Of a stretch of DNA of 39,696 nt, positions 1 to 7,546 are shown one piece after another; within the stretch, counting starts at the first letter, position 1, and each line of letters starts with the position of its first letter. The stretch spans positions 1 through 39,696 of the IMG/VR virus record IMGVR_UViG_3300045995_000227; one strand, written 5' to 3'. Below the pieces are notes generated by a model, which did not search any database, was not told the origin of the DNA, and was given only the letters and a program-made list of their open reading frames with translations. The DNA is from a virus. Position numbers and translations under genes: made by a program.

Positions 1-858
1 TACATGGTGAATTCCATGATCACACTTCCGAGCAACGCCAAGTTGCAGGGGGCTGGGAGCACCAGTATCTTCGTGCAGCCCGTCCACTCCACGTTTGCCA
101 CCCACATGTACACGTTCACTGTGGCGAACAACGCAGCCAACGCTTCGCTGGATGGTTTCAAGTTCGCGGCCTCCGTCTGGGAAGACGGCTTGAGCGGCAT
201 CATAGCTGCCGGGGGGGCCACTAACTGCTCCCTCAAACACCTCACCTTCGACAAGTGCCGCATCGGCATCAAGCTGGGCTCCGGTACTGCCGCCCACGGC
301 TGGACCGTGGAGGATATCGCCTGCACCGACACCTGGCTGGGGCTCTTCGTGGCCAACGTCCATGAGTCCACCTTCTCCCGGCTCAATCTCAACTGTGTCA
401 ACGACGCTGTTCCCGAGAGGCCACACTGCCTGTACATGGAGCAGGGTTGCCGTGACCTCGTGTTCAACGACGTGACTCTTACCAAAGGCACTGGCTACTG
501 TCTGCAAATCTACTTCTACAACACGGGAGACGGCAGCGACAATGTAGTGTTCAACAACCTCACGCTGGACGCCACGGGTGGACACTACCCCATGACTATC
601 GGTGGCAACAGCATGACCAACTTCGTCTTTAATGGCATCACCATCACCGACAAGGCGGGCACGGACGAGGCCGCCATCCAAGTCTCTGACATGGTAGATG
701 GGCTGGAGTTCCACAACATCAGCGCAGTCGGGACATGGCTCATCGGCGGGGCAACCGGCAGCGACATCCTCCTGAAGGACGGCACCTTCGATGGCACCGC
801 TATTGCGAAGGGCGCGGCGCTTACCGGCCTCATTGTCACCAACGTGACGCTTACCTGA
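1..858 (+). CDS. Tail spike / pectate-lyase-fold protein, C-terminal part (truncated by window edge)
   Basis: The reading frame is open to the left edge, so the true start lies upstream and 284-285 C-terminal residues are visible. The chain is rich in short Asn/Asp/Thr/Gly-flanked beta strands, such as LEFHNISAVGTWLIGG and FVFNGITITD. This is typical of right-handed parallel beta-helix tail spikes that bind or cleave host surface polysaccharide. No catalytic motif is evident in this piece. Base composition is distinctly GC-richer (33 of the first 60 bases are G/C) than the gene that follows, and resembles the spike at 24251-25672. It is probably a modular, laterally acquired receptor-binding domain. 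The fold is an inference from pattern, not from a search. Confidence 0.6.
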   Translation, partial: YMVNSMITLPSNAKLQGAGSTSIFVQPVHSTFATHMYTFTVANNAANASLDGFKFAASVWEDGLSGIIAAGGATNCSLKHLTFDKCRIGIKLGSGTAAHGWTVEDIACTDTWLGLFVANVHESTFSRLNLNCVNDAVPERPHCLYMEQGCRDLVFNDVTLTKGTGYCLQIYFYNTGDGSDNVVFNNLTLDATGGHYPMTIGGNSMTNFVFNGITITDKAGTDEAAIQVSDMVDGLEFHNISAVGTWLIGGATGSDILLKDGTFDGTAIAKGAALTGLIVTNVTLT

Positions 859-877
859 TGCCCAAGGAAGGTGACTA

Positions 878-2122: not shown

Positions 2123-3754
2123 ATGTCAGACGAAGTCACTGTTAGGTCTTCAATACTAGACGAACTATCTGCAGTTAGTACAACACAGGTAAATCAGCAT
2201 GATTTGGTAAAAAGGGCTAATTCTGCCTATGGACTGTTATCCTCTATACCAATGGTGTGTCATGGGGAAGCATGCCAGCCTGCCGGAACTTTAATTGAGA
2301 CCGTTTCTCATGGGAAGGTTCTTATCGAAGAACTAAACCCATCGCTTCATAAGCTCGTGGCCTTTGATTTGGGTAACCTTATGGTTAGGAAGGGTCGTCC
2401 AAGTTTCGGATATCCCGGATACAGCTTTGAAAAAAGACTGAGAGATTATGAGGGATTGATGATAACTATATCTACCCAAGAGGCAGAACATAAATGTACT
2501 TCTGACCATTATTCTATCGTCAGATGGAATGAAAAAGCTATAAATGCATTTGTTGTATATCTCATGGAGAGAGATGGGCATTTTCGAATTGGAAAGACTA
2601 AATTAATTTCGCAAAAGGATGATGGTAAAAGAACATTTTACCCAGCACAAAGAGCACGAGCAGAGCAAGCTGACAATTTGTGGATATTGGGAGTATATAG
2701 CACCAATACAGAAGCCCTACTTATGGAAGAGTTCTTTTCAGTAACATGGCAGACACCAAAGGCTTGCTTTTTTGCTCAACCTAATTGTTCAAATGACGAG
2801 GGTTTATATAGATGGGTTACTCAAGAACAACTAGATGAACATCACAATAAATTGAATAAACCTAGGTTACATTATTCTATTCTACTAAATTCTATTGGCA
2901 AAGATATTAATTATCCTTTTTGGTCAACGTTTCCGTGTAGGGAAACAACATATGAGTTTGGCAGTAGAAGAAAAGAATTTTCATATCTTGGTTCTTTGAA
3001 TAGAGTAATGATAGTAAAATCATGTAATCTAGTAAGTGAATATATGGATGTCCCGGTTATTCCTGGAGTTCCCAAGATTAGAGATTATAAGGGAAAGGGT
3101 AGAACTGCTATGAGAAAGCAAAGTGGTATCTCCCCCGTCTGGAAAACCATCACAACTAGATATACACGTTTCAGCGGCACGGTTTTTAGTCTTGAAGTGG
3201 AAAAATATAAGACTTATATTGCAAATGATATCATTACTCATAATTGTTCTTATAGTGAGGTCTGTCCAATACACCAAGCTGAATTAACTTCTGTGGGAGA
3301 TAGATGCCCGATAGAGACAGACTTGACAAGAGACATGTTTGTCAGTTATTGCCAAGAGTTAATGATTAACCCAGACTATGACAAAGTACAAGCAGGTTTG
3401 GTAAAAGACTTGTGTTCTGTGGAAATACAAGCTCTCCGGGCGAATAAGCTTATGTCCTTCAAAGACTTTATAGTTGATGTTGTTGACGCCATAAATCCCC
3501 GCACCGGAGAAGTTATCTACAGAAAAGACTTACACATAGCAATCCTTTGGTCCGAAAAACTCATCAACCAGAAGATTAGGATATTGGATACGTTAGCTGC
3601 TACTCCTATCATCAAGGTTAAATACCAAGGTGGAATCAAGACCGAGACCCTGCAAGACAAGCTTCTTGCTTTGCGCAAACAAGTAGAGGCCCTTATGCCC
3701 AAAGATGAGACTGTGGCAGAGGCATACCAAATTGATGAGTGGAGAGAAGAATAA
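2123..3754 (+). CDS. Cys-cluster protein (possible small terminase subunit) interrupted by an intein
   Basis: The frame encodes 543 residues, but residues 51-374 are an intein, so the mature extein product would be about 219 residues. The joined extein reads PMVCHGEA plus CSYSEVCPI, and a fourth Cys follows in GDRCPIE, giving a CX4CX5CX13C cluster likely to bind zinc or another metal. The rest is helical and charged, ending in a probable coiled coil (KTETLQDKLLALRKQVEAL). Its place three genes before the large terminase, and recall of similar Cys-motif proteins beside terminases in other large phages, suggest a small terminase or packaging factor. That function is inference. The gene ends with an overlap onto the next ATG. 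Confidence 0.7.
   Translation: MSDEVTVRSSILDELSAVSTTQVNQHDLVKRANSAYGLLSSIPMVCHGEACQPAGTLIETVSHGKVLIEELNPSLHKLVAFDLGNLMVRKGRPSFGYPGYSFEKRLRDYEGLMITISTQEAEHKCTSDHYSIVRWNEKAINAFVVYLMERDGHFRIGKTKLISQKDDGKRTFYPAQRARAEQADNLWILGVYSTNTEALLMEEFFSVTWQTPKACFFAQPNCSNDEGLYRWVTQEQLDEHHNKLNKPRLHYSILLNSIGKDINYPFWSTFPCRETTYEFGSRRKEFSYLGSLNRVMIVKSCNLVSEYMDVPVIPGVPKIRDYKGKGRTAMRKQSGISPVWKTITTRYTRFSGTVFSLEVEKYKTYIANDIITHNCSYSEVCPIHQAELTSVGDRCPIETDLTRDMFVSYCQELMINPDYDKVQAGLVKDLCSVEIQALRANKLMSFKDFIVDVVDAINPRTGEVIYRKDLHIAILWSEKLINQKIRILDTLAATPIIKVKYQGGIKTETLQDKLLALRKQVEALMPKDETVAEAYQIDEWREE
2273..3244 (+). other. In-frame intein (324 aa) with canonical splice junctions
   Basis: The intein starts at Cys51 (CQPAGTLIET, block A) and ends at His373-Asn374, with Cys375 as the +1 extein nucleophile (IITHN then CSYSEVC). 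Block B shows the TxxH signature, Thr126 and His129 in HKCTSDHYSIV. Block F is VFSLEVEKYKTYIAND, matching the usual V-x-L-x-V...(F/Y)IAND pattern. All residues needed for class-1 splicing (Cys1, block-B His, penultimate His, terminal Asn, +1 Cys) are present, so splicing competence is expected. Removal restores an uninterrupted Cys-rich motif in the host protein. The central part is not a recognisable LAGLIDADG endonuclease; see the GIY-YIG entry. Confidence 0.92.
2543..2767 (+). other. GIY-YIG-type endonuclease domain within the intein
   Basis: Residues about 141-215 of the precursor follow the GIY-YIG layout. A first strand, FVVYLMERDG, is followed by FRIGKT in place of YIG-x-T, then a conserved-type Arg (Arg177 in PAQRARAEQ), a strand NLWILGVYST, and a helix with the expected catalytic Glu (ALLMEEFFSV, Glu202 or Glu203). 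This resembles the T5orf172/MUG113 branch of the superfamily. It would make a double-strand or nick cut for intein homing. About 140 residues between this domain and block F are unassigned and could be DNA-binding. GIY-YIG domains are uncommon in inteins, where LAGLIDADG is usual. The call rests on motif reading alone. Confidence 0.72.
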
Positions 3755-4269
3755 TGGCGAGAGCTGGTGGTTTTTGGAGCAACTACATAAACCCTAATAG
3801 GTACCAGGACGGGGTCCGTAATAGTTACGCTCGCCCCCTATATCGACAAACAAGATTCTATACCAATAGAGCTGGGGCAACAGTAGAGGCTACTGCACAG
3901 GAATGGGCCAACTATACCCGCAAGGGTACACAAGTGTTTACTCACCCAATCAAGGCTTTTACTGGTGAGAAATCTGCTGGCTTCTGGCGGACTGCAATGC
4001 GTCAGACTGATAGAGCAGTGTCTGGGCTTAGGAGTGGGAAGATGGGTCCTCCCACAAGAGGTGGGCGTTATGGTTTTACTGCGGCAATTAAGATAGGCTC
4101 GGAAGCTCGTAAAGCTTATGCTGGGAGAGCTTTTGGTAATATCGTCAAAGCAGCTACTCATCTTCCGCTCAAAACCAAGATAGGTCTTCCTCTAGCTGCT
4201 GCCGGTATATATGGTTGGATGCACAATCGGAAGAAGGACAAAATGTACACTCACTACTTTGATTTCTAA
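3754..4269 (+). CDS. Hypothetical basic protein with C-terminal hydrophobic segment, 171 aa
   Basis: The start chosen is the ATG at 3754, which overlaps the preceding stop (TAATG) and lies after GGAGAGAAG. An in-frame ATG at 3739 has no convincing ribosome site. The product, starting MARAGGFWSNYINP, is strongly basic (many Arg/Lys) and Gly/Ala-rich. A hydrophobic stretch near the end (LKTKIGLPLAAAGIYGWMH) is followed by RKKDK. The layout parallels the C terminus of the protein at 1278-2120. Function is unknown; a virion-internal or membrane-contacting role is possible. The gene is translationally coupled on both sides. Confidence 0.62.
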   Translation: MARAGGFWSNYINPNRYQDGVRNSYARPLYRQTRFYTNRAGATVEATAQEWANYTRKGTQVFTHPIKAFTGEKSAGFWRTAMRQTDRAVSGLRSGKMGPPTRGGRYGFTAAIKIGSEARKAYAGRAFGNIVKAATHLPLKTKIGLPLAAAGIYGWMHNRKKDKMYTHYFDF

Positions 4270-4634
4270 TGGCTACTCCAATTAGTACAAGATTATTTGC
4301 TGCTGCCGGGACTGCTCAAAAAGCCTCAAAGGGTTTTGAGTATGTAATCAAAGGCATCAACAAAATCATGTTCAACAAGAAGGTTGCATTTCCAGCTCTT
4401 GTAGGTTTATTCGGGATGGGGACACTCCATGGTTTTACCAAAGAGATGATTCACAATCCCACGACAAATGCTCTTCTCTCAGATTATCTGTCTAGCGGAA
4501 AAACAAAAGCAGATGAATCTGGTATGCCTTTAGGCACTACTGCCAAAAACTACTACTATAGACCTTCTGGCAATGACATATCTGCCACTGGACAACTTGC
4601 TCTCGCCATGTTTGCCACTAGGCACGGAAGATAA
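4269..4634 (+). CDS. Hypothetical small protein with one membrane-like segment, 121 aa
   Basis: The ATG overlaps the stop of the preceding gene (TAATG) with no separate Shine-Dalgarno, so expression is probably coupled. The N terminus is Ala-rich and basic. A hydrophobic Gly-rich stretch (VAFPALVGLFGMGTLHGF) at about residues 39-56 could span a membrane or be buried in a complex. No known domain is recognised. It sits in a block of four small genes just upstream of the large terminase. Confidence 0.58.
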   Translation: MATPISTRLFAAAGTAQKASKGFEYVIKGINKIMFNKKVAFPALVGLFGMGTLHGFTKEMIHNPTTNALLSDYLSSGKTKADESGMPLGTTAKNYYYRPSGNDISATGQLALAMFATRHGR

Positions 4635-5743: not shown

Positions 5744-7546
5744 GTGCAGCTTCTTCACAGACCCGATTTGGATGATATGTCCTTTGATGAACTCTATTCA
5801 GGGTTATCTGAGGAGTTGCGCAGTGGAGTGGACCAAATCATGTGGACATTCCGCCGCAAATTAATCAATATGCCTGGGGCAGACCAAATTGCTGTTAGAG
5901 ATTTCGAGCTTACCAAAGAAGACCTTAAATCACTTTATGACCCAGTTCTCCCCCCAGAGTTAGAAGGGACTCTTTCTTCAGAAGAGAGGATGTTTGCTCT
6001 CTCCTCAATTGACCCAGTGATATGGGTTAGAAACTTCCTACATTACGAACCACGTTCCTATCAGATTATGATAATGCGTAACCCGTCGAGAATCAGGGCC
6101 TATCGTATGGGGCGAAGAAGTGGGAAGACAACCTGTATGATTTGGGAAATGCTCTGGTTTGCTTACACTAATCCCTCTGTATTCATCATCGTCATTTGTC
6201 CTCTAGAGGCACAGGTTAAACTTATGTGGGACATGATAGACGACATGTTGCTTAACTCTGGTATTCACCCTCTCAAAAATGCCTATACTGAATTTGGTGT
6301 AGTGCGGAAAAACAAAAAACCATGGGAGATGGAATTTGCCAATGCTTCCAAGATAAAAGCATTTACTTCTGGAGCAAGGTCTGGTGGTAAGGCCGACACA
6401 GTACGTGGTAATGAAGGGCACATGATTGTAGTAGACGAGATGGACCTTATGATGCCTGATGACCTTAACGCTATCACTGCTATGATGCAGCAGACTTCAG
6501 ATAGATTTGCTGGCAATAAAAGACTACTTGTAAGTTCTACTCCAAATGGTCGTAGAGATATGTTCTACGTTTTTTGCCACAAAAAGGGAGTCAAGGAATT
6601 CTGGCTACCAAGTTTCGTAAACCCATTCTTCACTCCAGACGATGAAAAAGAACAGAGAGACCTTCTACTAGAATCAGGGTTCACCCATGAGATTCTTGCT
6701 TGCTTCGGAGAACAGACTACTGGTGTTTTCAAACCAACACTTTTGGACCATGTCGCCGATACGGAATACTCTTATTGGAATACTAGACCTTTCGGGTACA
6801 ATGGACCCATCATTCTTGGTGTAGACTGGGATAAGTATGGAGCTGGGGTAAATATTGTCGGGGTTGCAAATGTTGATGGTTTGCTACAAATGGTGATACG
6901 TGAAGAGATAGAGAGGGCAGCTCATGAGCATACTCTGGGTGCTGGAGTGGAAAGAATCATACAACTTGACCAGATATTTCATTTTGCCTTCATTTATGTA
7001 GACAGAGGTTATGGTGAAAGGCAGTGGGAAGAACTGGTAGAGAAACTTCCCTGGGGTGTGCAAAGGGTGATTGGAAAGAACTATTCTAGCTCCGTAGAGG
7101 AAACCGACCCTGTCACTATGGCTATAGTTCGTGAAGAGTTCAAGCCATTCATGGTTGATAACGCCGTTAACCTTTACGAGAAGCGAAGAGTACGCATCAC
7201 CCCTGATGATGAAAAGTTTATAGCTCAACTTAACGGTTATGTCCAGTTGAGGATATCTCCTACTGGTAGACCTATCTTTGGTTCAATGGACCCAGAACGT
7301 ATTGGAGACCATGCTCTTGAAGGTTGGATGATGGCACTCTTGGGACATACAGAACAGTTTGGAGAACTAATCATTCCGTTCGAGTTCTTAAGACCAGTAG
7401 TTATGTCAACCAATGAAGCTCTCTCTCCTGGTAGCTCTAAAGAGGAAAGACAAAAAAGCTCCAGGCAGTTTATGAAAATACGCAGACCAATGACCTCTCT
7501 CACTAGGAGAGGTTCTGCTGGTGTATTTAATCGTCCAGGAATCTAG
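5744..7546 (+). CDS. terL: Terminase large subunit (ATPase-nuclease)
   Basis: This is the DNA-packaging motor, translocating DNA into the prohead and cutting concatemers. The N-terminal ATPase has Walker A GRRSGKT (about residues 123-129), Walker B MIVVDEMD (Asp231/Glu232) and the coupling motif LVSSTPNG (about 262-269). The RNase H-like nuclease shows ILGVDWD (Asp361) and FIYVDRGYGE (Asp420), with a third acidic site expected near GDHALEGW. The length of 600 residues is normal. The start is GTG immediately after the previous stop, with GGGGA upstream. The catalytic sites look intact. Confidence 0.95.
   Translation: MQLLHRPDLDDMSFDELYSGLSEELRSGVDQIMWTFRRKLINMPGADQIAVRDFELTKEDLKSLYDPVLPPELEGTLSSEERMFALSSIDPVIWVRNFLHYEPRSYQIMIMRNPSRIRAYRMGRRSGKTTCMIWEMLWFAYTNPSVFIIVICPLEAQVKLMWDMIDDMLLNSGIHPLKNAYTEFGVVRKNKKPWEMEFANASKIKAFTSGARSGGKADTVRGNEGHMIVVDEMDLMMPDDLNAITAMMQQTSDRFAGNKRLLVSSTPNGRRDMFYVFCHKKGVKEFWLPSFVNPFFTPDDEKEQRDLLLESGFTHEILACFGEQTTGVFKPTLLDHVADTEYSYWNTRPFGYNGPIILGVDWDKYGAGVNIVGVANVDGLLQMVIREEIERAAHEHTLGAGVERIIQLDQIFHFAFIYVDRGYGERQWEELVEKLPWGVQRVIGKNYSSSVEETDPVTMAIVREEFKPFMVDNAVNLYEKRRVRITPDDEKFIAQLNGYVQLRISPTGRPIFGSMDPERIGDHALEGWMMALLGHTEQFGELIIPFEFLRPVVMSTNEALSPGSSKEERQKSSRQFMKIRRPMTSLTRRGSAGVFNRPGI

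Follow-up and report, generated by a model that had tools for sequence, protein, structure and literature searches.

The window analysed here, 39,696 nucleotides of viral DNA (positions 1 to 39,696 of IMG/VR virus record IMGVR_UViG_3300045995_000227), probably contains a homing intein of a distinct family whose GIY-YIG-like nuclease lies outside C35, the canonical endonuclease site of inteins. The anatomy of the element, its conservation, predicted fold and insertion point, the spread of its family and a precise presence/absence polymorphism were computed in this study, and from them we infer splicing, cleavage, specificity and homing. By its sequence, the insert at 2273-3244 is an intein within a host open reading frame of 543 aa (2123-3754, plus strand), which runs uninterrupted through the insert; a single copy of this intein is present in the window (Table 1). 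The first-pass annotation had recognized an intein at this place; it missed that the intein belongs to a family that includes SPO1 gp34.33 and that the nuclease sits at an unusual place within the Hint fold.

Table 1. Features of the intein-bearing gene and its neighbourhood in the window
Feature	Position	Strand	Basis
N-extein, 50 aa, Cys-cluster protein, ends ...IPMVCHGEA	2123..2272	+	Open reading frame; alignment with uninterrupted probable orthologues (L121, L122)
Whole intein, 324 aa	2273..3244	+	Motifs, conservation; AlphaFold2 model, pLDDT 89.1, pTM 0.87
Hint N-terminal part (residues 1-88): Cys1 2273-2275, block B TSDH T76-H79 2498-2509	2273..2536	+	Invariant residues, Hint fold
Predicted GIY-YIG-like nuclease core (residues 93-160): Y96 2558-2560, R105-I-G107 2585-2593, R127 2651-2653, E152 2726-2728	2549..2752	+	Invariant columns; fold matches; hhalign to UvrC
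Linker and helical pair (residues 161-241; helices 184-194 and 198-207; conserved L205, P215)	2753..2995	+	Secondary structure, model confidence, conservation
Hint strand-helix-strand with IVKSCNLVSEYMDVPV (residues 242-262)	2996..3058	+	Aligns with L079, L120 and the Spl DnaX mini-intein
Loop at the canonical C35 endonuclease site (~residues 263-288), no domain, low confidence	3059..3136	+	Mean pLDDT 57-77 over most of the stretch
Hint C-terminal part: block F, terminal H323-N324	3137..3244	+	TIGR01443; Intein_splicing positions 126-155
C-extein, +1 residue Cys (CSYSEVCPIHQ...)	3245..3754	+	Open reading frame; alignment with probable orthologues
Terminase large subunit (TerL), neighbour	5744..7546	+	phrog_2, E 2e-31; relatives in MTATph1 and KLEB27-3

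All the residues of a class 1 intein are present, namely Cys1, TxxH in block B, the terminal Asn and Cys+1. The translation reads CQPAGT...TSDH...VEKYKTYIANDIITHN followed by Cys, with YIANDIITHN at the C-terminus, and C1, T76 and H79 are invariant in an alignment of 64 sequences. The NCBIfam profile for the C-terminal splicing region, TIGR01443, passes its cut-off (25.8 bits vs 15.6, E 9e-6). Pfam Intein_splicing scores below its cut-off on the last 30 intein residues (20.6 vs 35.8 bits); the same profile matches 10 of the 10 family members tested at E <= 10, with a best value of 2.5e-8. When the whole-intein model was compared with the PDB, the 50 entries listed gave a Hint fold, with Z 13.8-18.4 to inteins and a hedgehog domain; this search is dominated by Hint and carries no information on the nuclease. 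The canonical splice junctions proposed in the first-pass annotation (Cys1, TxxH, HN^Cys) are borne out by these motifs, by TIGR01443 and by the predicted Hint fold, and the intein would most likely splice through the class 1 route.

The spliced host product contains a C-x4-C-x5-C-x13-C cluster. Its gene lies 2 kb upstream of that for the terminase large subunit, a neighbour that puts it in the packaging region. Uninterrupted relatives of the host gene were found by tblastn in Moorella phage MTATph1 (E 2e-21) and Bacillus phage vB_BauM_KLEB27-3 (E 1e-16). The same two phages also hold the terminases closest to that of the window (E 2e-65 and 6e-47, respectively), so these host-gene relatives, judged by sequence, are probably orthologues from the same packaging neighbourhood. 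They lack exactly the insert found in the window, and C-KAEE-CPYA (C-x4-C) reads across the joint. A search of IMG/VR for close relatives of the spliced host gene found none. What appears to be the same host gene carries related inteins in two IMG/VR contigs: in L002/L015 the Cys used is that of the window, and in L001 (5001-5909) it is one further along the cluster (GRA^CLIE, compared with GEA^CSYS in the window). The two sites are ~20 codons apart, and the alignments thus give the Cys-cluster gene a second insertion site. The G+C content over the intein (window 2501-3500) is 35-38%, compared with 43-46% nearby; separately, the first open reading frame (4-858) lies in a stretch of 52-60% G+C (window 1-860), with a shift near its end.

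Residues 94-153 of the intein contain the series VVYLM..FRIGKT..R..EALLMEE, in which Y96, R105, G107, R127, W137 and E152 are identical in all 64 non-redundant and diverse members aligned; because the key positions are invariant in these 64 sequences, the motif is not a chance resemblance. The order Tyr...Gly...Arg...Glu corresponds to that of GIY-YIG nucleases (the first-strand Tyr, the Gly of YIG, the catalytic Arg and the Glu), as the first-pass annotation had noticed. The second Tyr of GIY-YIG is replaced by Arg (R105) in 64/64 members, and we therefore name the domain GIY-YIG-like rather than file it as GIY-YIG. Per-member scans with the Pfam GIY-YIG, T5orf172 and MUG113 profiles gave no match in any of the 64 members, and searches of Pfam, NCBIfam, PHROGs and PDB sequences with the nuclease alone returned nothing usable. 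We also considered LAGLIDADG or HNH content and rejected it, as no such Pfam family matched in the window intein or its relatives. Profile-profile comparison was more informative in one case: hhalign aligned the nuclease to a set of 13 UvrC GIY-YIG domains with a probability of 64% and a score of 28.75, with the motifs in register, and none of 100 column-shuffled references scored above 20.07. There was no significant hhalign match to a YhbQ-type GIY-YIG set or to a T5orf172 set (12 sequences).

The AlphaFold2 model of residues 86-218, built from 64 sequences, has a pLDDT of 92.5 and a pTM of 0.85 and shows the order strand-strand-helix-strand-helix. In a VIA-align comparison with the PDB, the 13 best matches were all GIY-YIG proteins (Slx1, UvrC, UPF0213) at Z 3.1-4.2, values that are low in absolute terms, and the first unrelated chain appeared at Z 2.6. 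Foldseek placed no GIY-YIG entry among the best 50 PDB matches listed for the nuclease. In a viral structure library, the first three matches were inteins of the same family, from helicases and methyltransferases; among the matches below them, those with an annotation were mainly GIY-YIG or intron-type homing endonucleases, several at a probability of 0.94-0.99. The earlier assignment to GIY-YIG rather than to LAGLIDADG or HNH is thus favoured by the motif order, by the predicted fold and by the UvrC profile-profile comparison, and it does not extend to a Pfam match or to the second Tyr. Each of these lines of support is moderate when taken singly; in combination, they make predicted GIY-YIG-like nuclease the best name for the insert.

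In the predicted structure, the nuclease is inserted in a Hint fold, which comprises residues 1-88 and 242-324 and is split by the nuclease and the helical pair. Two mini-inteins at the methyltransferase site lack the nuclease, L079 (149 aa, 4001-4447) and L120 (144 aa). Residues 242-324 align to them as a single block, at E ~1e-20 to 1e-22, and hence include the Hint strand-helix-strand that comes before C35; these mini-inteins display the empty arrangement. The segment after the nuclease aligns in addition to residues 79-137 of the Spl DnaX mini-intein (E 2e-5). The placement of L079 against the nuclease, ambiguous in a MAFFT alignment, became clear when the block after the nuclease was aligned by profile. 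The strand-helix-strand 'vrAcNLlpgimevP' stands before C35 in ordinary inteins and after the nuclease here, so the nuclease occupies the turn after the block B strand. We took the position of C35 from a structural study in which the C35 loop of PabCDC21-1 carries I121 and L124 (PMC6801210), and L079 aligns to PabCDC21-1 through the C35-loop stretch. On these alignments and the model, the nuclease is outside C35: it follows block B, precedes the next Hint strand and lies ~20 residues upstream of C35. The ~140 residues after the nuclease, previously regarded as unassigned and as a potential new DNA-binding module, resolve into a linker and helical pair of ~80 residues (161-241), a piece of Hint (242-262) and the C35 loop (~263-288). 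The linker and helical pair could possibly be a DNA-contacting extension.

The window intein belongs, on sequence comparison, to a widespread family and is not a one-off. We found the family at ~100 loci in phages, plasmids and bacteria: 67 IMG/VR loci carry relatives, and 39 loci are in genome contigs, a few of them partial or only distantly related, whose bearers include Cyanobacteriota, Acidobacteriota, Planctomycetota, Pseudomonadota, Bacillota and Actinomycetota. We recovered 77 complete inteins; the conservation alignment comprised 64 non-redundant sequences. In phages, full-length relatives include the intein of SPO1 gp34.33, those of Okubovirus relatives of SPO1, and others in Streptococcus suis phage methyltransferases and the helicase of Vibrio phage RYC; plasmid relatives occur in genes of Providencia, Thermobispora, Nostoc and Stanieria. 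The inteins sit in UvrD-like helicases, in an adenine methyltransferase (HEP^C and similar) and in the Cys-cluster gene. In the helicases, the insertion site mostly follows GDxxQ of motif III, with three other sites in L060, L065/L077 and L073. Several UvrD-like helicase inteins (L031, L042, L046-L049, L064, L065, L067, L068, L077) end in VGN, TGN or VEN, without the penultimate His, and two members (L116, L117) look N-terminally truncated or decayed. A 1202-aa open reading frame of Klebsiella phage KP13-16 (L013 3001-3351), has a helicase-like context (DEAQD and GD..Q), and within it are the divergent start of an intein and the same nuclease motif, YLM...FRVG. In a helicase-like gene of a Nitrosopumilaceae archaeon MAG (L118), the match is limited to the last 50 intein residues, and this is probably a different intein.

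Close phages differ by the precise presence or absence of the intein. For the empty-site search, the flanks of the SPO1 insertion site were joined (500+500 bp), and phage Goe9 gave an uninterrupted 1001-bp match to the joined flanks at 96.3% identity. The site is likewise empty in SPO1L1, SPO1L2, SP8 and Adastra, and in Goe16 over 989 bp; SPO1, Goe10, CampHawk and others have ~825 bp extra at the insertion site. At the S. suis methyltransferase site, phi-SsuSSJ27 is empty (1001 bp contiguous, 91.1% compared with the intein-bearing JS7) and phi-SsuSSJ28 is occupied. Intein-free copies have thus been found both for the window's own gene, as probable orthologues in MTATph1 and KLEB27-3, and for the relatives, in Goe9 and phi-SsuSSJ27. 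Some S. suis and S. dysgalactiae prophages (H90-H97) have ~590 extra bases in the same methyltransferase region, some of them annotated as HNH or homing endonuclease, and this insert is possibly a competing element. In Bacillus phage phiBsKO1-1 (L014, ~2900-3700), the frame of an SPO1-type intein is broken by several single-base and small indels; some of these are in homopolymers, so that sequencing error may explain them, and we dropped this case as evidence of degeneration.

In a quick tree of 71 inteins, whose bearers span several bacterial phyla and phages, two host-gene changes suffice: a single branch sets off all inteins of the methyltransferase (support 98), and another all those of the Cys-cluster gene (support 100). 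The tree and the presence/absence pattern fit allele-specific homing with rare jumps. Where dS was computable, many values being saturated, the nuclease core (w 0.02-0.27) and Hint (w 0.03-0.17) are under similar purifying selection.

Three other explanations were weighed against that of a homing intein with a GIY-YIG-like nuclease. To read the insert as no intein at all, but as part of the host protein in the form of an in-frame domain, agrees with the open reading frame and with nothing else. Against this stand the intein motifs at both ends, the orthologues in which precisely this stretch is missing and C-x4-C spans the joint, and the relatives in unrelated genes, some of them annotated as inteins; we give this explanation almost no credence. 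A nuclease of a different, undescribed alpha/beta fold, GIY-YIG-like in motif order only, would account for the failure of GIY-YIG sequence profiles, the low structural Z and the Foldseek result against the PDB. Such a fold would not be expected to have GIY-YIG proteins as all 13 of its best VIA-align matches with nothing else as high, viral GIY-YIG endonucleases directly after the family's own members in the structure library, and a UvrC profile alignment in register and above shuffles, and we consider it highly improbable.

A somewhat stronger case, though still an unlikely one, can be made for a domain that has the GIY-YIG fold but no nuclease activity, and that stabilises or regulates splicing while the intein spreads passively by phage recombination. 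Degenerate endonuclease domains that stabilise the Hint halves have been described (PMC6801210), and the second Tyr is Arg in all members of the family. The invariance of Y, G, R and E across very divergent members argues against such a loss of activity, as do the similar purifying selection that acts on nuclease and Hint and the precise presence/absence among close phages. The nuclease-free L079 and L120 further imply that the nuclease need not be required for splicing at the methyltransferase site.

Under the homing-intein explanation, which we favour, the Hint domain would splice by class 1 chemistry, with the Cys1 thioester, TxxH, the terminal Asn and Cys+1, and the exteins would be joined. 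The nuclease, followed by the helical pair and situated between block B and the next Hint strand, would cut those alleles of its host gene that lack the intein, at the insertion site or close to it, and the element would spread when the break is repaired from a copy that carries it. On this view the element has mostly kept to one family of host genes, with rare jumps to a new one (UvrD-like helicase, adenine methyltransferase and the Cys-cluster gene).

The endonucleases nested in inteins are usually named as LAGLIDADG or HNH types. The window intein has in common with such inteins (PI-SceI, PI-PfuI, PI-PkoII and others) a Hint domain with a nested endonuclease and the logic of homing; it differs in the fold of the nuclease and in its position, which in those inteins is C35 (PMC6801210). 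A 2006 survey stated that no GIY-YIG members had been found in inteins (PMC1564403), and a 2025 survey of gut phages found only HNH and LAGLIDADG domains inside other genes, with GIY-YIG endonucleases standing alone (PMC12363816). The nearest known case is a GIY-YIG gene between the halves of a split intein (PMC7891396); in that AceL NrdHF locus the endonuclease lies between two genes for the split halves, whereas the nuclease in the window is nested in one polypeptide. Among the papers listed or consulted in searches of open-access full text, we found no report of a nested GIY-YIG intein, a search that could miss a report in a subscription journal.

Tyr/Gly/Arg/Glu order and predicted fold are alike in the window nuclease and in the GIY-YIG homing endonucleases (I-TevI, the Seg family), UvrC and Slx1. 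The latter proteins occur outside inteins and retain the second Tyr, whereas the window domain has Arg and is too diverged for detection by Pfam. In the GIY-YIG-like families T5orf172 and MUG113 the second Tyr is often Lys (several of the sequences L123-L133), and their profile similarity to the window nuclease is not significant, with few members sampled. Since Lys takes this place in T5orf172-type proteins, the second Tyr is not a universal feature. The closest described relative is the intein of SPO1 gp34.33, a UvrD-like helicase, and of CampHawk, which resembles the window intein over its full length (28% identity, E 9e-29) and shares the nuclease motifs, in a different host gene and at a different site. 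Both the SPO1 record and the CampHawk announcement annotate this insert as an intein, and neither names an endonuclease.

The structural study of 2019 concluded that all intein endonucleases are at C35, for a reason it called puzzling; it noted that random endonuclease invasion would predict inteins with the domain elsewhere and discussed why there are none (PMC6801210). The family described here appears to be a case of an intein endonuclease away from C35, and we think it likely that this is the first recognized intein family in which a GIY-YIG nuclease has been captured by a Hint domain at a site other than C35. It would provide compact inteins (~262-330 aa) with a new nuclease layout, and the long-annotated insert of SPO1 would now be accounted for. 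Since SPO1 with the intein and Goe9 with the empty site are both B. subtilis phages amenable to laboratory work, the capture, the steric-clash explanation of C35 and GIY-YIG-like homing can be tested directly. If our interpretation is correct, inteins have captured endonucleases in a further, independent event outside the C35 lineage, and SPO1 offers a testable exception to the published rule of an exclusive C35 location.
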